From Sphingomonas sp. 67-36 (GTDB lineage: Bacteria > Pseudomonadota > Alphaproteobacteria > Sphingomonadales > Sphingomonadaceae), in assembly GCA_001897375.1 (NCBI GenBank), contig MKSU01000015.1, positions 62,001 through 126,000 of the forward strand: a DNA stretch of 64,000 nucleotides, given 5' to 3'. Both the position numbers and the translations under genes were made by a program. This document shows, in pieces, positions 49,280 through 59,965 of the stretch. The notes under the pieces are model-generated. The model had not been told where the DNA came from. It worked only from the letters and a program-made list of their open reading frames with translations, and ran no database searches. Numbering within the stretch: position 1 is the first letter of the stretch; every line of letters starts with the position of its first letter.

Positions 49280-50434
49280 CTACAGATCGCGCGCGTAGAT
49301 CTGATAGACCTTGTTGACCTTGCTATCGATCGCGGCGGCGATCGAGTTCATGCCCTGATTGTCGTCGAGCACCCAGCCGATCTCCGCGCGGCTCGCGCCG
49401 TAGCGCCCCACCGCGTCCCGGCGGATGAACTCGATCATCATGAAAGCGAGCTGGCTCGCCAGCCGCGACGACTGAAGCTCCTTCAGCACGCCCATCAGCG
49501 GCACGCGCATCGTCCGCACCTTCGGCCGCCGCAGCCACAGCAGCAGCTTCGCCCAGCCGAACGGCAGCAGGTTGCCGTTGAGCGGCTTGATCGCCTCGTT
49601 GAGATCGGGAAGCGTGATCATGAAGGCGACCGGCCGGCCGTCGAGTTCGGCGATACGGATCAGGTCGTTGAACACGATCGGCTTCAGCTTCACGCCGATA
49701 TCGTCGATCTCCGGCTGGGTCAGCGGGATGAAGCCCCAATTGTCCGACCAGGCATCGTTGAGGATGCCCAGGATGATCGCAGCCTCCTGCTGGAATTTCG
49801 ACTTGTCGACGTGCCGGATGCGGATGCGCGGATTCTTCTCGCCGGACGCGACGATGCGGTTGACGATCGGCGGAAAGCCGTCCGAGATCGGCAGGTCGTA
49901 GGTGAAGAGCCTCTTCACCGGCAGATAGCCCGCGCGCTCCACCCAGCCGCGATATTCGGGCCTGGCATGGCCCATCATCACCGTCGGCGGATGATCGAAG
50001 CCCTCGATCAGCAGCCCCGGCTCCTCCCACACCGATTGCGAGACGGGGCCGATCGCCCGCGTCATGCCCTGATCGCGCAGCCAGCCTTCCGCCGCCGCCA
50101 TCAGCGCGGTGAACTGCTCCTCGTTCTCCGCGTCCATCAGGCCCCAGAAGCCGGTGCCGGGGCCGAAGCCGCGCTCGGGCGGCATCTCCAGCGCCAGCGT
50201 GTCGATATGCGCGGAAATGCGCCCGACCACGCGGCCATCCTGCTCGGCGAGGAAAAGCTGCGCCTTCGCATGGCTGTACCAGCCGTTCTTCTCCGGCGTG
50301 ATGAGGCCCAGGGCCTCGCCCTTCAGCGGCGGCACCCAGTTCGGATCGTCGCGATAGAGGCGGAAGGGGAAATCGACGAAGGTCTTGCGGTCGCGCTTCG
50401 TCAGGACGGGGCGGATGGTGATCGGTGATGCCAT
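49280..50434 (-). CDS. GNAT-fold N-acyltransferase, candidate bacterial ceramide synthase (bCerS family)
   Basis: A 384-residue soluble protein starting with a GNAT-like half: TIRPVLTKRDRKTFVDFPFR at residues 5-24, DPNWVPPL near residue 29, then FLAEQDGRVVGRISAH near residue 60. A second half contains KNWGF-type NDAWSDNWGFIPLT and PDLNEAIKPLNGNLLPFGW. This layout, often annotated as GCN5-related acetyltransferase or dATP pyrophosphohydrolase, matches my recollection of the Caulobacter protein shown to N-acylate the sphingoid base. It lies within 6 kb of serine palmitoyltransferase and diverges from a desaturase gene. No membrane segment is seen. The family is well supported, the ceramide role is inferred. 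Confidence 0.62.
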   Translation of the reverse strand: MASPITIRPVLTKRDRKTFVDFPFRLYRDDPNWVPPLKGEALGLITPEKNGWYSHAKAQLFLAEQDGRVVGRISAHIDTLALEMPPERGFGPGTGFWGLMDAENEEQFTALMAAAEGWLRDQGMTRAIGPVSQSVWEEPGLLIEGFDHPPTVMMGHARPEYRGWVERAGYLPVKRLFTYDLPISDGFPPIVNRIVASGEKNPRIRIRHVDKSKFQQEAAIILGILNDAWSDNWGFIPLTQPEIDDIGVKLKPIVFNDLIRIAELDGRPVAFMITLPDLNEAIKPLNGNLLPFGWAKLLLWLRRPKVRTMRVPLMGVLKELQSSRLASQLAFMMIEFIRRDAVGRYGASRAEIGWVLDDNQGMNSIAAAIDSKVNKVYQIYARDL

Positions 50435-50542
50435 GAGACAGGCGCAATAATCGCACGAAGCGATCATGGCGAGTGACCTTTCCGTCATCATCGCGCCGCC
50501 GGCGGCCTGTAAACGCCACCGTCTCGCCACTATCTTCGGCCA

Positions 50543-51628
50543 ATGGACCACGCCATGACGACCATCACCCTCGATCGCGCGTCCGCCGCGCCCGCGCGCC
50601 TGCCGATCGCCGACGATCGCGAGATGCTGAAGGCCGCCGCCGAGCTGACGCGCGACATCAATGCGCCGCGTCCTGGCATCTACTGGGCGGATTTCCTCGG
50701 CTCGGCCGTGCTCGGCTATGCCGCGCTGGCGGCGGCGGTCCTGTCGCATTCGGCCGCCGTGACGATCGCGGCGGGAGTGGTGTCGGTGCTGGCGCTCTAT
50801 CGCGCCCTGCTGTTCATCCACGAGCTGACCCATGTGCGCCACGCCGCGCTGCCGGGGTTCCGCTTCGCCTATAATCTGGTGATCGGCGTGCCGATGCTGG
50901 TGCCGTCGTTCATGTACGAGGGCGTTCACAACCTGCACCACGCGCGCACGCGCTACGGCACGGTCGACGATCCGGAATATCTGCCGCTCGCGCTGATGAA
51001 GCCGTGGACCTTGCCCGTGTTCATCATCGTCGCGGCGCTGGCGCCGGTGGGGCTGATCATCCGCTACGCCGTGCTGACGCCGCTGTCGCTGCTCATCCCG
51101 CCGCTGCGCCGCGCGGTGGTGGCGCGTTATTCGTCGCTGTCGATCAATCCCGCCTTCCGCCGCCGGATGCCGGAGGGCGAGTTCCGCGCGCAGTGGAACC
51201 GGATCGAGGCCGCGTGCATGGCCTGGGCGATCGCGCTGGTCGCACTGGCGGCGACGGGCGTGCTGCCGCTGCGCGCGTTCGGCATCATGGTGGCGGTCGC
51301 CTCGGGCGTGGCGGTGCTCAACCAGGTCCGCACCCTCGTCGCGCACCTGTGGGAGAACGAGGGCGAGACGATGACCGTCACCGCGCAATATCTCGATTCG
51401 GTCAACGTGCCGCCGCCGGGCCTGCTGCCGGGCCTGTGGGCGCCGGTCGGGCTGCGCTACCACGCGCTGCACCATCTGCTGCCGGGGCTGCCCTATCATT
51501 CGCTGGGCGAGGCGCACCGGCGGCTGTCGAAGGCGCTGGACGCATCCTCGCCCTATCACGACGCCAATTACCGCAGCCTGCCCTATCTGGTCGGCAAGAT
51601 CGCGCGGAGCACGATGCTGCCGCGCTGA
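50543..51628 (+). CDS. Membrane fatty-acid desaturase/hydroxylase family protein
   Basis: A 361-residue integral membrane di-iron protein. Three histidine boxes are present: H93-ELT-H97-VR-H100, H129-NLH-H133 and H307-AL-H310-H311, with several hydrophobic helices between (residues 50-90, 105-125, 155-190, 225-260). Such enzymes insert double bonds or hydroxyls in acyl chains. Its neighbours are the candidate ceramide synthase (divergent, 108 bases) and lptG (convergent, 5 bases). An ATG four codons later is an alternative start. Acting on the sphingoid base or the amide-linked acyl chain is a hypothesis from context. Confidence 0.85.
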   Translation: MDHAMTTITLDRASAAPARLPIADDREMLKAAAELTRDINAPRPGIYWADFLGSAVLGYAALAAAVLSHSAAVTIAAGVVSVLALYRALLFIHELTHVRHAALPGFRFAYNLVIGVPMLVPSFMYEGVHNLHHARTRYGTVDDPEYLPLALMKPWTLPVFIIVAALAPVGLIIRYAVLTPLSLLIPPLRRAVVARYSSLSINPAFRRRMPEGEFRAQWNRIEAACMAWAIALVALAATGVLPLRAFGIMVAVASGVAVLNQVRTLVAHLWENEGETMTVTAQYLDSVNVPPPGLLPGLWAPVGLRYHALHHLLPGLPYHSLGEAHRRLSKALDASSPYHDANYRSLPYLVGKIARSTMLPR

Positions 51629-51633
51629 CGTAG

Positions 51634-52725
51634 TTATTCCTCGGTGCGCAGCAGCACCGTCTCGCCGATGAACAGGAACAGCAGGAACGGCGCCCAGGCC
51701 GCGAGGAACGGGGGGTAGGCGCCGAGATTGCCCATCGCCAGCGCGAAATTGTCAGCGACGAAATAGGCGAAGCCCAGCGCCATGCCGATCACGGCGCGGA
51801 CGAACAGCTTGCCCGAGCGCGCGATGCCGAACGCCGCCACCGCGCCGAGCAGCGGCATCAGCACCGACGAGAGTGGCCCCGACAATTTGTGCCACAGCGA
51901 GCCTTCGAGCGCCTTGGTCGGCCGCCCCGCCGCCTTGAGGTCGCCGATCGCCTCCCTGAGCGCGCCGAACGACAGCTCGTCCGCATCGACCGAGGCGAGG
52001 GTGAACTGGTCGGGCGTCACGCCGCGCGCGATCACCGTCTCGCCGAGCTGCGACACCTTGCCGCTCGCGACGTCGAAGCGCTGCGTCGGCGCCACCACCC
52101 AGCCGTCGCCGGCGCGGCGGCCGCGCGGCGCGGTGACGATCGCGCGCAGCGCGCCGCCCTGCCGGTCATAGACGGTGATGCCGCCCAGTTCCGCCGCATT
52201 CCCGCGCCCCCTGATCGTGTCCACCTCGATCAGATCGGGGCCGGATCGCACCCACACGTTCGTCCGGTCGCCGCGGTCGACCGGCATCGGCCCGTAATCG
52301 ACCTTCTGCCAGCGGTTGAGCGTGGCGGTGGCGCGCGGCACGATGCGGTCGTTGAAGGCGAAGCTCAGCACCGCGACGCCCATGCTGGCGACGATCAGCG
52401 GCGCCAGCACCTGATGCGCGGACATGCCCGCGCCCTTCAGCGCGACAACCTCGCTGTTCTGGTTCATCGTGATGAGCGTGAGGATCGTGCCGAGCAGCAC
52501 CGAGAAGGGCAGGAAGCGCGCGATGATCTGCGGCGCGCGCAGCGTGACGTAATACCACACCTGCGCGTCGCCATTGCCCTGCGCCGCGAGGATCTTGCCG
52601 GATTCGCCCAGCAGGTCGAGCGCCTGGAGCACCAGCACCAGCCCGGCGAGGATGCCGAACGTCCGCACCAGGAACATCCGCCCCATGTAGAGGGAGACGG
52701 TGCGCGAGGGGAAGAAGGAGGTCAT
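51634..52725 (-). CDS. lptG: LptG-type permease of the Lpt envelope-lipid exporter
   Basis: A 363-residue permease with about six membrane helices: three near the N-terminus (LVLVLQALDLLG, ARFLPFSVLLGTILTLI, VLAPLIVASMGVAVLSF), a periplasmic beta-jellyroll (residues about 130-260) and three near the C-terminus. EVVALKGAGMS is the cytoplasmic coupling segment that meets the LptB ATPase. The start overlaps the lptF stop (ATGA), so the pair is co-translated. In LPS-bearing bacteria LptFG extracts LPS from the inner membrane; sphingomonads studied so far carry glycosphingolipid instead. Confidence 0.88.
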   Translation of the reverse strand: MTSFFPSRTVSLYMGRMFLVRTFGILAGLVLVLQALDLLGESGKILAAQGNGDAQVWYYVTLRAPQIIARFLPFSVLLGTILTLITMNQNSEVVALKGAGMSAHQVLAPLIVASMGVAVLSFAFNDRIVPRATATLNRWQKVDYGPMPVDRGDRTNVWVRSGPDLIEVDTIRGRGNAAELGGITVYDRQGGALRAIVTAPRGRRAGDGWVVAPTQRFDVASGKVSQLGETVIARGVTPDQFTLASVDADELSFGALREAIGDLKAAGRPTKALEGSLWHKLSGPLSSVLMPLLGAVAAFGIARSGKLFVRAVIGMALGFAYFVADNFALAMGNLGAYPPFLAAWAPFLLFLFIGETVLLRTEE

Positions 52726-53921
52726 GCGGGGGTCTCCGCGCGCTTGCGCCGGCCCGGCAGGCGGCTGGCGACGGCCTTCCACGCCTTGCCCGCCACGCGC
52801 TCCAGCGCGCCGATCGGCTGGCCGCCGGGAACGAAGGCGATCGTGCGATACATCCACAGCACCAGCGCGGCGAAGACGAGGAAGGGTATCCACAGCGCGA
52901 AGAACGGGTCGATCCGGCCGAGATGCCCCACCGAGGCGGCATATTGGTTGATCTTGTGATAGGTCACGATCATCACGATCGACAGGAACACGCCCAGCGC
53001 CGAGGTGGAGCGCTTCGGCGGCACGCCCAGCGCCACCGCGAGCAGCGGCAGGAGGAACATCGAGGCGACTTCCGCGAGGCGGAAGTGGAATTCCGATCGG
53101 CTGCTGTCGCGCTCCTCGACGGTCTGCCCGGTGCGGCCGGTGCGCGCCAGCTCGGGCAGCGTCGCCTCGAGGCTCTCGCCGCTGCGCACGCGGAATTGCT
53201 CGAACTTCGGCAGGTTGATCGGCAGGTCGTGGCTGTTGAAGGTCAGCACGCGCGGGGTGCTGAAATCCTTGCGGTTGTGGACGAGGGTGCCGTTGGTCAG
53301 GCGCAGGATGATGACGTCCGGGTCGTCGGTCGCGAGGAACTGGCCGCGCTGCGCCGTCACGCCCACCCAGTCGCCCTTCTGGGTCTCGGTATGAACGAAG
53401 ATGCCCGAAAGCTGGCGCCCGTCGTCGCGGCTCTGCTCGATGCGCAGCGTGGTGCGGTCCCCGAGATGGGTGAACTCGCCGACCTTGATCGAGGCGCCCA
53501 GCGCGCCCGTGCGCAGCTCGAAGCCGAGCTGTTCATAGGCGTAGCGCGCCTTGGGCTGGACATAGCCGACGATCGCGAGGTTCAGCAGCGCGAGCGCGAT
53601 CGCATACATATAGGGCACGCGCAGCAACCGCCCGTAGCTCATCCCCACGCCGCGCATCACGTCCAGCTCCGACGAGGTGGCGAGGCGGCGGAAGGCGAGC
53701 AGGATGCCCAGCATCAGCCCGATCGGGATGCCGAGGCCGAGATATTCCGGCAGCAGATTCGCCAGCATCCGCCACACCACCGAAACCGGCCCGCCCTCGG
53801 TCGCGACGAAGTCGAACAGGCGCAGCATGCGGTCCAGCACCAGCAGCATCGCTGCGAGCACGAGGGTGGAGAACAGCGGCAGCGCGATCAGCCGTGCCAT
53901 GTAGCGGTCGATCGATTTCAT
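52722..53921 (-). CDS. lptF: LptF-type permease of the Lpt envelope-lipid exporter
   Basis: A 399-residue permease with the LptF layout: MKSIDRYMARL start, helices near residues 12-32, 58-80 and 100-120, the coupling segment ELDVMRGVGMSYGRLLR near residue 85, a periplasmic jellyroll (residues 130-270) and three C-terminal helices, then a basic tail. It works with LptG as the transmembrane pair powered by LptB, which is not in the window. It lies 100 bases after the CHASE3 kinase gene on the same strand, downstream of serine palmitoyltransferase. Confidence 0.88.
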   Translation of the reverse strand: MKSIDRYMARLIALPLFSTLVLAAMLLVLDRMLRLFDFVATEGGPVSVVWRMLANLLPEYLGLGIPIGLMLGILLAFRRLATSSELDVMRGVGMSYGRLLRVPYMYAIALALLNLAIVGYVQPKARYAYEQLGFELRTGALGASIKVGEFTHLGDRTTLRIEQSRDDGRQLSGIFVHTETQKGDWVGVTAQRGQFLATDDPDVIILRLTNGTLVHNRKDFSTPRVLTFNSHDLPINLPKFEQFRVRSGESLEATLPELARTGRTGQTVEERDSSRSEFHFRLAEVASMFLLPLLAVALGVPPKRSTSALGVFLSIVMIVTYHKINQYAASVGHLGRIDPFFALWIPFLVFAALVLWMYRTIAFVPGGQPIGALERVAGKAWKAVASRLPGRRKRAETPA

Positions 53922-54022
53922 GGGCGGGAAACGGTCACTCGGCGCTGCTGGTCGATCGGGGCGGTATAGGCGGGGGAAAGCCGGGCGTCAGCCGAAATAT
54001 CCGCGCGGCGCGTTTCCGCCCG

Positions 54023-55981
54023 TCATTCCGCCGCGATGCCGGGGCGCGCAGCCGCGCGATCGGCGCCGGTCGCGGCGGCGATCGCGCGATCGAGCGCATT
54101 GAGCGTGAACGGCTTGCGCAGGACGTGATGGCCGGCGAACGCATCGCCCTCGCTCGCCTCGCCGGCGAAGCCGGTGACGAACAGCACCGGGATGTGCGCG
54201 TATCGCCGGTCGAGCGCGGCGATCATCTCCGGCCCGGTCTGCGTGGGCATCAGCACGTCGGAAAGGATCAACCGGATCGCATCGTGCGCGGCGAGCATCG
54301 CCGGCGCGGCGAGCGGGTCGTTGCAGGGGATCGGGCGATGGCCCAGTTCGCGAAGCGCGCCGCTCGTCGCGGCCAGCACGCGCGGATCGTCCTCCACCAC
54401 CAGCACGTCGAGCGCGGCGGGGGAGGCATGGAATGCCTCCTCGTCGCTCGTGGCGGGAGGCGCGGGCGCCTCCTCGTGCTCGCGCGGCAGATATAGCGTG
54501 ATCGTCGTGCCCGCGCCCGGCGCGGTGTCGACCGCGATCGCGCCGCTTTGCTGCCGGACGAAGGCGAAGATCTGGCTCAGCCCCAGCCCGGTGCCCTTGC
54601 CGACCGGCTTGGTGGTGAAGAACGGCTCGAACACGCGCTCGGCGACTTCCGGCGCCATGCCGCAGCCGGTGTCCGTCACCGCGATGGTGAGATAGTCGCC
54701 GGCGGCGCATTCGCGCTCGTTCTCCGCCAGCGTCGCGGTGCCGGCGGTGACGGTCAGCGTGCCGCGCCCGTCCATCGCGTCGCGCGCATTGACCGCGAGG
54801 TTGAGGATGCTGTTCTCGATCTGGACGCGATCCGCGCGCAGCCGCCAGCCCGCGCTCTCGTCGCGGATCACGACGGTGATCGCGTCGCCCAACGTCCGGT
54901 CGAGCAGGTCCGACATGCCGCGCAGCAGGTCCGCCGCGCGCATCGCCTCGGGATTGATCGCGGCCTCGCGGGTGAAGGAAAGCAGGCGGCCGGTCAGCGC
55001 GGCGGCGCGCTTCGCCCCCTCCATCGCGCTGTCGACATGGCGGCCGATCTCCTTGCGCGCCGTCGTGCCGGCCAGCCCACGCTGGGCAAGCTCCAGCCCG
55101 CCCATCACGACCGCCAGCATATTGTTGAAATCATGCGCGATGCCGCCGGTGAGCTGGCCCACCGCCTCCATCTTCTGCACCTGCCGCAGCCGCGTTTCCT
55201 GCTGGCGCAACTCGGCGGTGGCGACCGCCACGGCGGCGGCGAACTGGTCGGCGCGCTCGCGTTCGGCGGCGGCCTCTGCGCGGGCGACGCCGCGCTCGGT
55301 CAGCGCGCGCACGGTGAGCGCCCCCAGCGCGATCGCGCCGACCAGGATCAGGATGCCGAAGGCGGAGAAAATTCGCGCCAGCCGCGTCGCGCGCTCGATC
55401 GCGGCGCGTGTCTCCCGCGTGCGCTGGTCGAGCAGGTTGCGCTCGCTGCGAATCACCTCCTCGAGGATGCGGTCGATCGCCGTCAGCGAGGGCGCCTCGC
55501 GCGCGCGGTAGTAGAGCGACAGCGCCTGGTCGTTCTTGCCGTAATTGGTGCTGAGCGCGATCAGCGACAATTCCTTGCCGCGCTGCTGATAGGCGAGCCG
55601 CAACTGGGCGAGGCGCGGAATCTGGCTGTCGTTCTGGCTGGCGAGGTCGGCGAGCCGGTCGATCTGCTTCCCCGCGAGCTGCCATTTGTCGTAATAGAGC
55701 TGGCCGAGCTGCTTGTCGCCGGAGATGACGAAACGGCCGAGCGACGCTTCGGATTCCGCGATCGTCCCGTCCAGCGTGCGCGCCAGCACCATGATGTCAT
55801 AGCTGTGCGACTGGAGCTGGATCGCGCGGTCGCGCTGGCGGTTGGCCTCGCCGAGCGTCACGATCAGCGCGAACAGCACGGCGACGCCGAGCACGCCCAT
55901 CAGCGCCAGCGCGATGGTGCGGAGCTTCGAAATCGCCCGCTCCCGCGTATTTCCCCCGTCGATCGCGCTCACGACCGACAT
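54023..55981 (-). CDS. CHASE3 hybrid sensor histidine kinase with C-terminal receiver
   Basis: A 652-residue hybrid kinase. A membrane helix (residues 22-44), a periplasmic helical CHASE3 sensor (to about 200) and a second helix (203-225) precede a HisKA domain with phospho-acceptor H283 in GGIAHDFNNMLAVVMGG, an ATPase domain (NLAVNARDAM, DTGCGM, GKGTGLGLSQ) and a receiver with D575 in LILSDVLMPT. There is no DNA-binding output, so phosphate must pass to another protein. It sits 42 bases after serine palmitoyltransferase and before lptF on the same strand, suggesting a link to envelope lipids. Confidence 0.9.
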   Translation of the reverse strand: MSVVSAIDGGNTRERAISKLRTIALALMGVLGVAVLFALIVTLGEANRQRDRAIQLQSHSYDIMVLARTLDGTIAESEASLGRFVISGDKQLGQLYYDKWQLAGKQIDRLADLASQNDSQIPRLAQLRLAYQQRGKELSLIALSTNYGKNDQALSLYYRAREAPSLTAIDRILEEVIRSERNLLDQRTRETRAAIERATRLARIFSAFGILILVGAIALGALTVRALTERGVARAEAAAERERADQFAAAVAVATAELRQQETRLRQVQKMEAVGQLTGGIAHDFNNMLAVVMGGLELAQRGLAGTTARKEIGRHVDSAMEGAKRAAALTGRLLSFTREAAINPEAMRAADLLRGMSDLLDRTLGDAITVVIRDESAGWRLRADRVQIENSILNLAVNARDAMDGRGTLTVTAGTATLAENERECAAGDYLTIAVTDTGCGMAPEVAERVFEPFFTTKPVGKGTGLGLSQIFAFVRQQSGAIAVDTAPGAGTTITLYLPREHEEAPAPPATSDEEAFHASPAALDVLVVEDDPRVLAATSGALRELGHRPIPCNDPLAAPAMLAAHDAIRLILSDVLMPTQTGPEMIAALDRRYAHIPVLFVTGFAGEASEGDAFAGHHVLRKPFTLNALDRAIAAATGADRAAARPGIAAE

Positions 55982-56023
55982 AGTATCAGACCAGGCGATG
56001 CGCGAAAAGCGCGGGCCGGTTGT

Positions 56024-57283
56024 TCAGGCGATCGCGCCGGTCGCGCGGCCCGCCGCCTCGAACATCGCGATCACGCGGGCGATCTGTTCGCTCGTATGCT
56101 CGGCGCAGACCGAGCAGCGCAGCAGGAAGGTGCCGGCGGGGGTGGCCGGCGGTCGCGCGACGTTGACGTACAGCCCCGCCTCCAGCAGCGCGTGCCACAT
56201 CGCCACCGCCTGATCCTGATCGTCGAGCAGCACCGCGACGACCGCCGATTGCGGCTCGTCGGTCGGCAGGCGGAAACCCAGCGCCTTGAGGCCGCCGTGC
56301 AATGCCCTGGTGTTTTCCCACAGATGCGCGCGCTTGTTGTGGGCGTGCATCAGCTTGCGGATCGAGACGGCGGCGCTCGCCATCACGGCGGGGGGCAGGC
56401 TGGCGGTGAAGATATAGGGGCGGCAGACGAAGCGCAGGATCTCGAACTTCGGATGGTTCGACACGCAGAAGCCGCCGACCGTGCCGACCGATTTGGAGAA
56501 GGTGCCGATCACGAAATCGACCTGATCCTCCAGCCCCTGCTCCTCATAGACGCCGCGCCCGTTGGGGCCGAAGAAGCCCATCGAATGCGCCTCGTCCACC
56601 AGCACCATCGCGCCATGCTTTTTGGCGACGGCCACCATTTCCCTTAGCGGGGCGACGTCGCCAAGCATCGAATAGACGCCCTCCAGGACGACGAGCTTGC
56701 CCGGCTCCCTCGGCAGGCGGCCGAGCCTCTTGTCGAGGTCCTCGACCGAATTGTGGCGGAAGCGGACCACCTCGGCATTGCCCATCGCGCAGCCGTCGTA
56801 GATCGAGGCGTGGCTGTCGGCGTCGAGGATGATATATTCGCCCTTGCCGGCGATCGCCGAGATCACGCCGAGATTGGCCTGATAGCCGGTCGAGAAGACG
56901 ATCGCGCCCGACATGCCGTAGAATTCGCGCAGCGCCTGCTCCACCTCCATATGGTCGTGGAACGTGCCGTTGAGCGCGCGGCTGCCGTTGGTGCCGGTGC
57001 CGAAACGGTCGAACGCCTGCTTGCCGGCGGCGATCACGTCCGGGTCGAACGTCATCCCCATGTAATTATAGGTGCCGAGGAGGATCGTCTCCCTGCCCTT
57101 GATGACCGCGACGGTGGGGGATTTCACCTCCTCCATCACGATGCCGAACGGATCGCGCAGCCCGCTCGACAGCAGCGCCTCGCGCTCGGCGATCAGGGGA
57201 GCGAACTTGTCGAACAGGTCGCGTTCGGCCGGCGCCGGGGTGGCCGCCGGCGGAAGATCGGACTGCTGGCCGCTGTCGCTCAT
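56024..57283 (-). CDS. spt: Serine palmitoyltransferase
   Basis: A 419-residue soluble PLP enzyme of the alpha-oxoamine synthase family that condenses serine with palmitoyl-CoA or acyl-ACP to 3-ketosphinganine, the first step of sphingolipid synthesis. Residues match the S. paucimobilis enzyme with an offset of one: H158 (PLP stacking), D230 and H233 (VDEAHSMG), PLP lysine K264 in TFSKSVG, and the C-terminal arginines R377 and R389. The homodimeric bacterial form lacks membrane anchors, as here. The acyl carrier protein gene ends one base before its start. This is the best single mark of a sphingomonad in the window. Confidence 0.95.
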   Translation of the reverse strand: MSDSGQQSDLPPAATPAPAERDLFDKFAPLIAEREALLSSGLRDPFGIVMEEVKSPTVAVIKGRETILLGTYNYMGMTFDPDVIAAGKQAFDRFGTGTNGSRALNGTFHDHMEVEQALREFYGMSGAIVFSTGYQANLGVISAIAGKGEYIILDADSHASIYDGCAMGNAEVVRFRHNSVEDLDKRLGRLPREPGKLVVLEGVYSMLGDVAPLREMVAVAKKHGAMVLVDEAHSMGFFGPNGRGVYEEQGLEDQVDFVIGTFSKSVGTVGGFCVSNHPKFEILRFVCRPYIFTASLPPAVMASAAVSIRKLMHAHNKRAHLWENTRALHGGLKALGFRLPTDEPQSAVVAVLLDDQDQAVAMWHALLEAGLYVNVARPPATPAGTFLLRCSVCAEHTSEQIARVIAMFEAAGRATGAIA

Positions 57284-57284
57284 C

Positions 57285-57527
57285 TCACGCCTTCAGTCTG
57301 GCGACGGCGTCGGCGAGCTGGCCGACGGTCTCGATTTCCGCCTGCATGTTCATCGTGATGATGATGTCGAACTCGTCCTCGATCGCGGCGACGAAATCCA
57401 TCACCGTCAGGCTGTCCCACTCCAGGTCGCCCTGGAAGGTGGTGGCGTCGGTGACGGCGACGCCCTTCTTGTTGAAAGGTTCGATCTGCGCCTTGATGGC
57501 GGTGAGGATGGTGTCGCGGTCGCTCAT
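57285..57527 (-). CDS. Acyl carrier protein of the serine palmitoyltransferase operon
   Basis: An 80-residue acyl carrier protein. The phosphopantetheine serine is S39 in LEWDSLTVMDF, and acidic helices follow. It lacks the DSLD form of the housekeeping AcpP and stands alone beside serine palmitoyltransferase, one base from its start, so it should deliver the acyl group for sphingoid base synthesis, as established for the matching gene in Caulobacter. A phosphopantetheinyl transferase is not in the window. Confidence 0.92.
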   Translation of the reverse strand: MSDRDTILTAIKAQIEPFNKKGVAVTDATTFQGDLEWDSLTVMDFVAAIEDEFDIIITMNMQAEIETVGQLADAVARLKA

Positions 57528-57984: not shown

Positions 57985-58986
57985 TCAGGGGGTGCCGTGG
58001 ATGAAGGCGTCGTTGATCGAGCAGGCCGCCGGGCCGAGGATGACGATGAACAGCACCGGCAGGATGAACAGGATCAGCGGCACCGTCATGATCGCCGGCA
58101 GGCGGGCGGCCTTCTCCTCCGCGCGCATCATGCGCTCGTTGCGGAACTCGGCCGACAGCACGCGCAGCGCGGAGGCGAGGGGGGTGCCGTATTTCTCGGT
58201 CTGGATCATCGTGGTGACGATCCCCTTCACCTCGTCCAGCGCGATGCGGCTGGAGAAATTCTCGAACGCCTGGCGGCGATCGGTGAGGAAGCCCAGTTCG
58301 ATCGCGGTGAGCGCGAATTCGTCGCCCAGCTCGGGATAGGCCTTGCCAAGCTCCTTCGCGACGCGATGGAACGCGGCGTCCACGGTCAGGCCGGCCTCGG
58401 CGCAGATCACCAGCAGGTCGAGCGCGTCGGGCAGGCCCTTGCGGATCGCCTGCGAGCGCTTGGTGATCTGGTTCTTCAGGAAGATGTCCGGCGCCTTGTA
58501 GCAGGCGATGAAGGTGAAGGCGACCAGCCCGTAACGCTTAATCGCCGACCAGTCGGCGAAGCTGTTCGTGCCATAGACGACGAACACCATGATGCCGCCG
58601 ATCACCACCGGCAGCACCAGCCGGCCGAAGATCACGCCGACCGCCCATTCCTTCGAGCGGATGCCGGCCTGAAGCAGCTTGACCTGCGCGTCCTTGAGCT
58701 GGCTGTCCTGCAACACCTTCAGCGAGGCGAGGAAGGCACGGATGCGGTCGGCGCCCTCGCTGCGGCGCACCAGCTTCGCGCGGCGCTTGCCGCTGGAGGC
58801 GGTGATGCCGGCCTTGAGCTGTTCGCGGCGCTCGTTCAGCGCCTTGACGCGACGCGCCATCGGGTTGCGCACGCTGAGCGCGGCGTAGATCGCCACCAGC
58901 ACGGCCATCGCCGCCACCCCGGACAGGACCGTTGCGGCCAGATAGACGTCGATGCCCAGAAGCGTCGGATTGGATGCCGTTTCCAT
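57985..58986 (-). CDS. tadC: Tad pilus inner-membrane protein TadC
   Basis: A 333-residue type II secretion F-domain protein. It has an N-terminal helix (residues 14-36), a central pair of helices (118-165), the cytoplasmic GspF-like four-helix domain (LPDALDLLVICAEAGLTVDAAF near residues 190-212) and a C-terminal helix. TadC works with TadB as the membrane platform for Flp pilus assembly. It follows tadB by 4 bases and ends the pilus operon in this window. Confidence 0.92.
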   Translation of the reverse strand: METASNPTLLGIDVYLAATVLSGVAAMAVLVAIYAALSVRNPMARRVKALNERREQLKAGITASSGKRRAKLVRRSEGADRIRAFLASLKVLQDSQLKDAQVKLLQAGIRSKEWAVGVIFGRLVLPVVIGGIMVFVVYGTNSFADWSAIKRYGLVAFTFIACYKAPDIFLKNQITKRSQAIRKGLPDALDLLVICAEAGLTVDAAFHRVAKELGKAYPELGDEFALTAIELGFLTDRRQAFENFSSRIALDEVKGIVTTMIQTEKYGTPLASALRVLSAEFRNERMMRAEEKAARLPAIMTVPLILFILPVLFIVILGPAACSINDAFIHGTP

Positions 58987-58990
58987 CGCG

Positions 58991-59965
58991 TCAGATCTCG
59001 AAGTTTATCATCTTGGCCATGATGAAGGCGCCGATCGCCATCCATACCAGCCCGCCGCCGCCCACCATGATGAGCCGCTCGTCGACGAAGAATTTCTGCA
59101 TGTAGCTGCCGTTGATGAACCAGATCAGCCCGAAGACGATGAACGGCAGCGCGCCGATGATATAGGCCGACGCCTTCGATTCCGACGACATCGCCTTGAT
59201 CTTCAGCTTCATCTGCCCGCGCTGGCGCAGCACGGTGGCGAGGTTCTGCAGCGTTTCCGCCAGATTGCCGCCGGTCTCGCGCTGGATCGCGATGGTGATG
59301 CAGAAGAACTGGAACTCGGGAGTCGGAATCCGCTCGGCAGTTTCCTGGAGCGCGACGTCCATCGAGCGGCCGATCTTCATCTTGTCCGAGACGATGCGGA
59401 ATTCCTCGCCCACCGGCCCCGGCACCTCGCTGGCGACGACCGACATGGTTTCGGTGATCGGCAGGCCCGAGCGCAGGCCGCGCACGAGCAATTCGATCGC
59501 GTCGGGGAATTTCGCGTTGAACTTCGCGATGCGGCGCTTGATGAAGAAGCCGACGACATAGTGCGGAATGCCCGCACCCACGCCCAGCCCGACCATCAGT
59601 GCCAGCAGCAGCGGCAGGCCCTGCAGCATCAGCAGCAGGGTGACGATCGTCAGCAGACCCACCGTCGCCATGCCGTATTGACCGACCGTCCAGTTCTTGC
59701 CGGTACGCGTCAGCCGCTTCTTCAGCTCGGCCGGCTTCGGCAGGAAGCGCATCGCCGCCTGATCCGCCCTGGTGGCGTTCTTGCCGGTGATGCGGCGCAT
59801 CTGCGCCTCCACCGCCATTGCCGGCGAGGCGGAATGACGTTCGCGCAACGCGCCGAGCCGGCGGCTGCCGGCGCGCGCCGCGGACGGGCCGGCGAAGGCG
59901 AACGCGATCATCGCGATCACGGTCAGCGCGCCCAGCGCAAGCATGGCAATCGGCATCAGGGGCAT
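58991..59965 (-). CDS. tadB: Tad pilus inner-membrane protein TadB
   Basis: A 324-residue F-domain protein paralogous to TadC, with an N-terminal helix, two helices near residues 100-140, the conserved FPDAIELLVRGLRSGLPITETM segment near residue 160 and a C-terminal helix pair. It should form the platform with TadC. Upstream, 55 bases away, is cpaE rather than the motor ATPase gene expected here. Confidence 0.92.
   Translation of the reverse strand: MPLMPIAMLALGALTVIAMIAFAFAGPSAARAGSRRLGALRERHSASPAMAVEAQMRRITGKNATRADQAAMRFLPKPAELKKRLTRTGKNWTVGQYGMATVGLLTIVTLLLMLQGLPLLLALMVGLGVGAGIPHYVVGFFIKRRIAKFNAKFPDAIELLVRGLRSGLPITETMSVVASEVPGPVGEEFRIVSDKMKIGRSMDVALQETAERIPTPEFQFFCITIAIQRETGGNLAETLQNLATVLRQRGQMKLKIKAMSSESKASAYIIGALPFIVFGLIWFINGSYMQKFFVDERLIMVGGGGLVWMAIGAFIMAKMINFEI

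Follow-up and report, generated by a model that had tools for sequence, protein, structure and literature searches.

How a sphingolipid reaches the outer membrane of a bacterium that apparently has no lipid A is the question raised by a locus of Sphingomonas sp. 67-36, located at positions 49280-57527 of the window, i.e., the stretch of 64,000 nucleotides of contig MKSU01000015.1 that was analyzed as a whole. Sphingomonads lacking lipopolysaccharide (LPS) sharpen this question of transport because in them a glycosphingolipid replaces LPS, and the accessible part of PMC11324152 describes the route by which sphingolipids leave the inner membrane for the outer one as not known. The answer proposed here, to which we assign a probability of roughly 0.7, is that the locus would form a unit that makes, modifies, and exports sphingolipid, with LptF and LptG of a sphingolipid-type clade carrying the lipid to the outer membrane. 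An earlier note, based on the sequence alone, had read this region as a sphingolipid unit, an interpretation that is partly supported, and had listed seven genes, all of which were confirmed by their coordinates and domain models:

57285..57527, minus strand: acpR-like acyl carrier protein (ACP), 80 amino acids (aa); ACP models match below their own cut-offs, the best at 49 bits
56024..57283, minus strand: spt, serine palmitoyltransferase (SPT), 419 aa; NCBIfam NF047603, 826 bits against a cut-off of 670
54023..55981, minus strand: hybrid sensor histidine kinase, 652 aa; CHASE3-HisKA-HATPase_c-receiver domains
52722..53921, minus strand: lptF of the sphingolipid-type clade; PF03739, TIGR04407 (251.5 against a cut-off of 230), and trees
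51634..52725 (start at 52725), minus strand: lptG of the sphingolipid-type clade; PF03739, TIGR04408 (293.5 against a cut-off of 240), and trees
50543..51628, plus strand: PF00487 'fatty acid desaturase', a predicted ceramide acyl-chain hydroxylase; histidine boxes HELTH, HNLHH, and HALHH
49280..50434, minus strand: cerS/aca, putative bacterial ceramide synthase with a tandem-GNAT fold, 384 aa; YghO homology and predicted structure

LpxC, the single marker by which the presence of lipid A was judged, is found in none of the 147 genomes of the order (taken as Sphingomonadales; 56 genera), the window's own (G000) included, while controls from E. coli, Caulobacter, Synechococcus, and Bacteroides were all positive. 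Below, 124 of these genomes that are ≥90% complete and ≤5% contaminated are called good, and handles of the type G000, L055, and f1 denote genomes, stretches, and families, respectively. LptF/LptG are present in 138 of the 147 genomes, with exactly two matches in 122, three to five in 15, and one in a single genome. LptD occurs in 141 genomes, among them 123 of the 124 good ones, the survey of Lpt proteins having covered LptF/LptG and LptD.

To these were added 21 SPT-bearing genomes of other orders, scored for both LptF/LptG and LpxC; a 22nd (G216) was scored for LpxC only and is omitted from the comparison. When matched with the profile of the order, the LptF proteins of other orders fall into two groups, one at about 250-520 bits and the other at 70-117 bits, and the low-scoring pairs occur exclusively in genomes that carry LpxC. 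In the trees of both LptF and LptG, the nine low-scoring pairs, referred to here as LPS-type, form a clade of their own, and the pair of the order groups with those pairs of other orders that are single or linked to spt; the rows of these trees contain no sequence that carries the name Caulobacter. After the addition of E. coli K-12 and BL21, each of the two groups is single at 99-100% bootstrap for LptF as well as for LptG, in trees that leave out G203 and G225, two rows of the first trees that are long-branched for LptG. In the first LptG tree, rooted at the midpoint, a weakly supported branch (34/9) divides the rows that are not LPS-type.

The deepest order of branching differs between the two proteins. 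For LptF, the LPS-type alphaproteobacterial clade and the sphingolipid-type clade stand apart from E. coli (97/94), whereas for LptG the LPS-type alphaproteobacterial clade joins E. coli (99/98); thus, the age of the split is not fixed by the trees. Three genomes assigned outside the order (G184, G311, and G268) fall among its rows in both trees, possibly as a result of transfer or of membership in a neighboring order.

The LPS-type pair and LpxC agree in all 21 genomes of other orders, nine of which have both and twelve neither (Fisher p 3e-6, with relatedness ignored), and 11 of the twelve keep a sphingolipid-type pair. A homologue of LptD lies on the fetched stretch of four of the nine LPS-type pairs, several of these stretches being only 4 kilobases (kb) long, and on none of the six sphingolipid-type stretches tested. 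Judged by sequence family (PF03739, TIGR04407/TIGR04408), the pair in the window passes as part of the LptB2FG exporter of LPS. It differs from that exporter in its clade, in the lack of LpxC in its genome, and in its linkage to sphingolipid genes; the adjoining spt and ceramide synthase genes, as well as the clade shared with spt-linked pairs of other orders, are features expected of LptF2/LptG2 of the Caulobacter type.

It is a tentative generalization, practically an even bet, that Alphaproteobacteria across several orders own a second inner-membrane Lpt pair dedicated to sphingolipid, and that the LPS pair was lost wherever lipid A was given up. If so, an outer membrane built with sphingolipid and served by the Lpt machine would be an alternative to LPS that recurs among lineages, and the sphingolipid-type clade would predict LPS-free outer membranes in further lineages. 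Of the 22 alphaproteobacterial genomes with SPT that belong to other orders, 13 lack LpxC (G182, G184, G203, G211, G216, G221, G225, G238, G276, G303, G309, G311, and G330), including G216, which is 82% complete. Outer membranes free of LPS may be commoner than in sphingomonads alone.

On the minus strand of the window, acpR and spt are separated by 1 base, spt and the kinase gene by 42, and the kinase gene and lptF by 101, with lptF and lptG overlapping by 4 bases; a scan limited to consensus sequences found neither a terminator-like nor a promoter-like site on this strand from acpR to lptG, and the five genes could operate as one transcript. The desaturase gene runs tail to tail with lptG, 5 bases away, and diverges from the GNAT gene across 108 bases, so that neither the desaturase gene nor the GNAT gene belongs simply to the ACP-lptG transcript. 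The same gene order is found in Sphingomonas parapaucimobilis (NZ_CP155753.1), with an LptF that is 78% identical: an NAD(P)H-binding protein is followed by ACP, an aminotransferase-fold enzyme in the position of SPT, an ATP-binding protein, LptF, LptG, the desaturase on the opposite strand, and an N-acetyltransferase. A gene for CerR, located just upstream of ACP in many relatives, was not found in the window and is present on contig C32. Two T2SSF genes (Tad-type by guess) at positions 57985-59965 of the window lie upstream of ACP, which is the cerR site of most relatives within the genus.

The earlier note had suggested comparing gene order around spt, with restriction to this strain and its closest relatives counting against a unit. 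Linkage was followed on 78 spt stretches, of which 77 represent eight families within the order and the remaining one belongs to the window. They were searched with profiles grown from the window proteins, and several of them, including the only stretch from f3, stop at contig ends. The spt gene itself is present in 141 of the 147 genomes; the protein of the window passes the NCBIfam equivalog cut-off for serine palmitoyltransferase of the alphaproteobacterial, or Rhodobacterial, type. ACP is found on 77 of the 78 stretches, lptF on 55, the ceramide synthase gene on 54, and both of the latter on 52. As spt, lptF, and ceramide synthase recur together in seven of the eight families sampled, their linkage exceeds chance; the core locus is old, and the association of ACP with SPT, of LptF with LptG, and of both with ceramide synthase reaches well beyond the closest relatives of the strain.

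On the majority of stretches from f2 and f4-f7, the locus starts with AasR, CerR, ACP, and SPT, continues with a protein of no assigned role, a lipid kinase, and a DUF2141 protein encoded on the opposite strand, and ends with LptF, LptG, a flippase-like protein, sometimes a fatty acid hydroxylase (PF04116), and ceramide synthase. A shortened version of this locus is present in f8. Outside the order, 12 of 20 spt stretches also carry lptF, along with most of the genes of this locus. Cluster c7 (L062:6762-7739 and relatives), a protein of ~310 aa with no Pfam match, is found beside the lipid kinase in many families of the order as well as in other orders. The lptF gene shares the stretch with spt in 23 of 42 cases in f1 and in 32 of 36 in the other families, spt being often separated from lptFG in f1. 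Twenty further stretches were fetched, one for a lone desaturase and 19, from f1, for lptFG located apart from spt. All of the 19 hold lptFG and 18 hold ceramide synthase, with the desaturase between them in 16 and the fatty acid hydroxylase in one. Fifteen of the 19 were chosen with the proximity of the desaturase already known, which biases the rate for the desaturase; whether they held ceramide synthase was not known in advance.

The sensor kinase, which the earlier note had counted as part of the unit, proved to be no old member of it. A match at E 1e-100 occurs in 20 of the 147 genomes, belonging to six of 56 genera and to one family, and the best match starts within ~200 bases behind spt in all 20 carriers; the best eight first-look candidates per genome were scored, and G044 carries an additional, partial match at another place. 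The kinase gene stays behind spt even where other genes part spt from lptFG or where lptFG lies on the other side. It is a late addition whose association is with spt and not with lptFG. Its CHASE3 domain and position suggest that the protein probably senses the envelope and adjusts the supply of sphingolipid. The competing explanation, which we rate somewhat below even odds, is that the kinase gene arrived behind spt a single time, in an ancestor, and has been cotranscribed ever since with no part in regulating sphingolipids. Its confinement to six genera of one family, together with the lack of a match in two genomes of the window's own genus (G005 and G062), would fit such a hitch-hiker, whereas its constant place behind spt, wherever lptFG is found, argues for the regulatory role. 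No paper on a Sphingomonas SPT together with a histidine kinase was found among open-licence publications.

The product of the gene annotated as a desaturase, and named so in the earlier note, is probably a hydroxylase acting on the acyl chain of ceramide. Its histidine boxes have histidines that are invariant in an alignment of 16 sequences, and a search of PDB sequences with its profile returned no match. At E 1e-20, matches are found in 124 of the 147 genomes (three of the desaturase-negative genomes, G093, G104, and G106, having been identified by subtraction); most of those in f1 are 57-72% identical and those in other families 32-45%. A fatty acid hydroxylase of the PF04116 family, for which SCS7, a ceramide hydroxylase from yeast, is the best relative with a solved structure (E 1.4e-9), is found in 29 genomes. 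The two enzymes are distributed in a complementary manner, with the desaturase only in 116 genomes, the hydroxylase only in 21, both in eight, and neither in two (G104 and G106, <70% complete); for the good genomes the corresponding numbers are 102, 17, five, and zero. On a tree of SPT with 78 rows (built by a quick method, and reflecting a gene rather than the species), 11 changes are required to account for the hydroxylase-only label, and well-supported branches force at least six of them. Two families that replace each other repeatedly would share one job, and the SCS7-like partner makes hydroxylation of the ceramide acyl chain the most likely one.

The position of the gene in the locus points the same way. 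On all 16 spt stretches from f1 that hold the desaturase, it lies between lptG and ceramide synthase, and on 16 stretches the fatty acid hydroxylase directly precedes ceramide synthase. The SCS7/FA2H type of enzyme (PF04116) thus holds this slot in other genera, whereas the gene of the window belongs to a different family, PF00487. Membership of the desaturase in the unit holds for f1; on the 36 spt stretches of the other families the gene was not found. In eight genomes of f5 (G029, G046, G052, G055, G070, G073, G087, and G099) a homologue lies ~1.8 kb from an lpt gene, as judged by match positions, and on L098, from another order (G221), a homologue scoring 296 bits is located right behind spt on the opposite strand.

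It is unlikely, in our estimate, that the enzyme forms a double bond in the long-chain base or the acyl chain instead of adding a hydroxyl. Such an activity would agree with the Pfam name FA_desaturase, with a weak NCBIfam match to DesA (far under the cut-off), and with the five good genomes that carry both enzymes. It agrees poorly with the exchange against an SCS7-matching hydroxylase, whose slot the desaturase holds in f1, and with the report, in the available text of PMC11324152, that CC_0202 of Caulobacter, itself of the DesA family, hydroxylates the amide-linked chain. Some observations speak against hydroxylation. Among the 102 genomes counted as desaturase only, G034, G058, and G071 have just matches that are 32-36% identical and that may be paralogues, the true orthologue being perhaps absent; all matches outside f1 are 32-45% identical and were not found on the fetched spt stretches; and P450SPalpha (CYP152B1) of S. 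paucimobilis is, in the accessible text of PMC10002949, a published 2-hydroxylase of fatty acids. The exchange of desaturase and hydroxylase gives a candidate enzyme for hydroxylated ceramide besides this P450. If the generalization about Alphaproteobacteria holds, a ceramide hydroxyl supplied by either of two di-iron-type families would be an almost obligatory feature of the sphingolipid outer membrane.

The GNAT protein, which the earlier note had singled out as a candidate ceramide synthase, is 41% identical over 382 columns to YghO of E. coli BL21 (E 1e-97), and the candidacy was borne out. YghO is listed as aca together with CC_1154 of Caulobacter in the part of PMC9386255 that was accessible. 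The GNAT protein has no match in Pfam or NCBIfam, and a search of PDB sequences gave a chance match only; the AlphaFold model (pLDDT, its predicted accuracy score, of 92) matches tandem GNAT structures in the PDB. Homology to known aca proteins and the GNAT fold both identify it as a predicted ceramide synthase (cerS/aca), an N-acyltransferase that would act on the long-chain base. For S. paucimobilis AIMST S2, the same source gives the tags DRN02_007880 for acpR, 007885 for spt, and 007910 for aca; by our own arithmetic, a step of 5 leaves four genes between spt and aca, which fits the four of the window. Identity with CC_1152 was also considered, since in some other orders the GNAT gene follows a CDP-alcohol transferase-like gene and a fatty acid hydroxylase gene behind lptG; it was dropped in view of the match to the listed aca protein YghO and of the published locus tags.

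Taken in sequence, the products of the locus would work as follows. AcpR would deliver an acyl chain, SPT would join it to serine, the GNAT protein would add the second (amide) chain, and the 'desaturase' would hydroxylate that chain. The finished (glyco)sphingolipid would then be pulled from the inner membrane by LptF/LptG and transferred to the outer membrane in concert with the remaining components of the Lpt machine as far as LptD. The pair itself would be the sphingolipid-type paralogue, the LPS-type one having been lost along with lipid A, and the kinase, added in some Sphingomonas-like genera, would probably tune the supply to the state of the envelope.

Several genomes do not conform to this scheme of export. 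Five genomes of f2 (G009, G022, G033, G037, and G042), as well as G045 of f8, have spt and LptD with no match to LptF/LptG, and on L055 and L056, which come from G009 and G022, ceramide synthase is present and lptFG absent. Two genomes of other orders depart from it as well: G211 (L106), which is 100% complete, has SPT and ceramide synthase and neither LptF/LptG nor LpxC, and G224 has SPT, ceramide synthase, LpxC, and an LPS-type pair only. The sphingolipid-type pair is therefore dispensable in some bearers of SPT, a situation that could reflect either another exporter, divergence beyond the reach of the profile, or incomplete assemblies. The f2 group lacking LptF/LptG consists of small or incomplete genomes. 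In addition, membership in a clade is no proof of cargo, and the absence of lipid A is judged from one marker. The odds of a unit for sphingolipid export, and of the wider generalization about Alphaproteobacteria, are slightly lowered by G224, by G045, and by the weak desaturase matches in three genomes, which raise those of another cargo and of a double bond.

It is quite improbable that LptF/LptG are kept for another cargo, such as a different envelope lipid or a lipid-linked polysaccharide, with their place beside spt being an inherited order of no functional meaning. The separation of lptF from spt on 19 of the 42 f1 stretches would be natural in that case, as would the six genomes of f2 and f8 that lack the pair and the ability of G224 to manage with an LPS-type one. 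However, where the pair lies away from spt, it is still adjoined by ceramide synthase on 18 of 19 stretches, the same clade stands beside spt in other orders too, and a second LptFG of E. coli BL21, also located beside spt, groups with E. coli's own pair, so that the association seems to have arisen twice (with the reservation of a long branch). That lptFG next to spt is simply a left-over LPS pair was rejected, as the trees place it outside the LPS-type clade.

Transport of sphingolipid by such proteins has been proposed before. In the available text of PMC11324152, LptC2, LptF2, and LptG2 of Caulobacter are put forward as sphingolipid movers analogous to Lpt, with transport itself not investigated, and orthologues in S. 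wittichii and Zymomonas are mapped as scattered. Like the window, the region CC_1168-CC_1152 of Caulobacter crescentus shown there combines acpR-spt, LptF2/LptG2 (CC_1156, CC_1155), and cerS (CC_1154). Unlike it, the window has no adjoining gene for ceramide kinase or phosphoglycerate, and contains a sensor kinase and a desaturase instead; C. crescentus also has LpxC, in contrast to all genomes of the order. PMC9386255 covers the spt regions of S. paucimobilis AIMST S2 and S. wittichii, and the tags of acpR, spt, and aca in the former have a spacing that fits the window. The accessible text of that paper does not name the genes between spt and aca and does not contain 'lpt'; it gives a specialized function of AcpR in relatives. 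The gene set, called unusual in the earlier note, is only partly new, since two of its parts are in print as far as the available texts go, namely the pairing of ACP with SPT (PMC9386255) and the location of LptF2/LptG2 next to spt and cerS (PMC11324152). New here are the split of LptF/LptG into clades that track LpxC, the exchange of desaturase and hydroxylase, and the late kinase. Within the open-licence literature, Lpt names were found together with sphingolipid or Sphingomonas in PMC11324152 only, and LpxC together with the glycosphingolipid of Sphingomonas in one commentary; no description was found of the two-clade split or its match with LpxC, of the locus as conserved across further families of the order, of the complementary hydroxylases, or of the spt-kinase pair.

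In E. coli BL21(DE3), yghO, a fatty acyl-AMP ligase, an epimerase, ACP, and spt are adjoined by an extra annotated lptG-lptF (L238:9921-12067), an arrangement that resembles the window and offers a convenient system for laboratory work. This spt-linked LptFG differs from that of the window in grouping with LptFG of K-12, outside the sphingolipid-type clade, and in coming from a species with LpxC; its placement suggests a second, independent recruitment, although on a long branch. The sphingolipid-type clade, in following the loss of LpxC, names a candidate transporter and exposes an annotation for LPS export in a Sphingomonas: at L243:9890-12183, the lpt genes are publicly annotated as serving LPS export (GO:0015920), although the genus is reported to be free of LPS.

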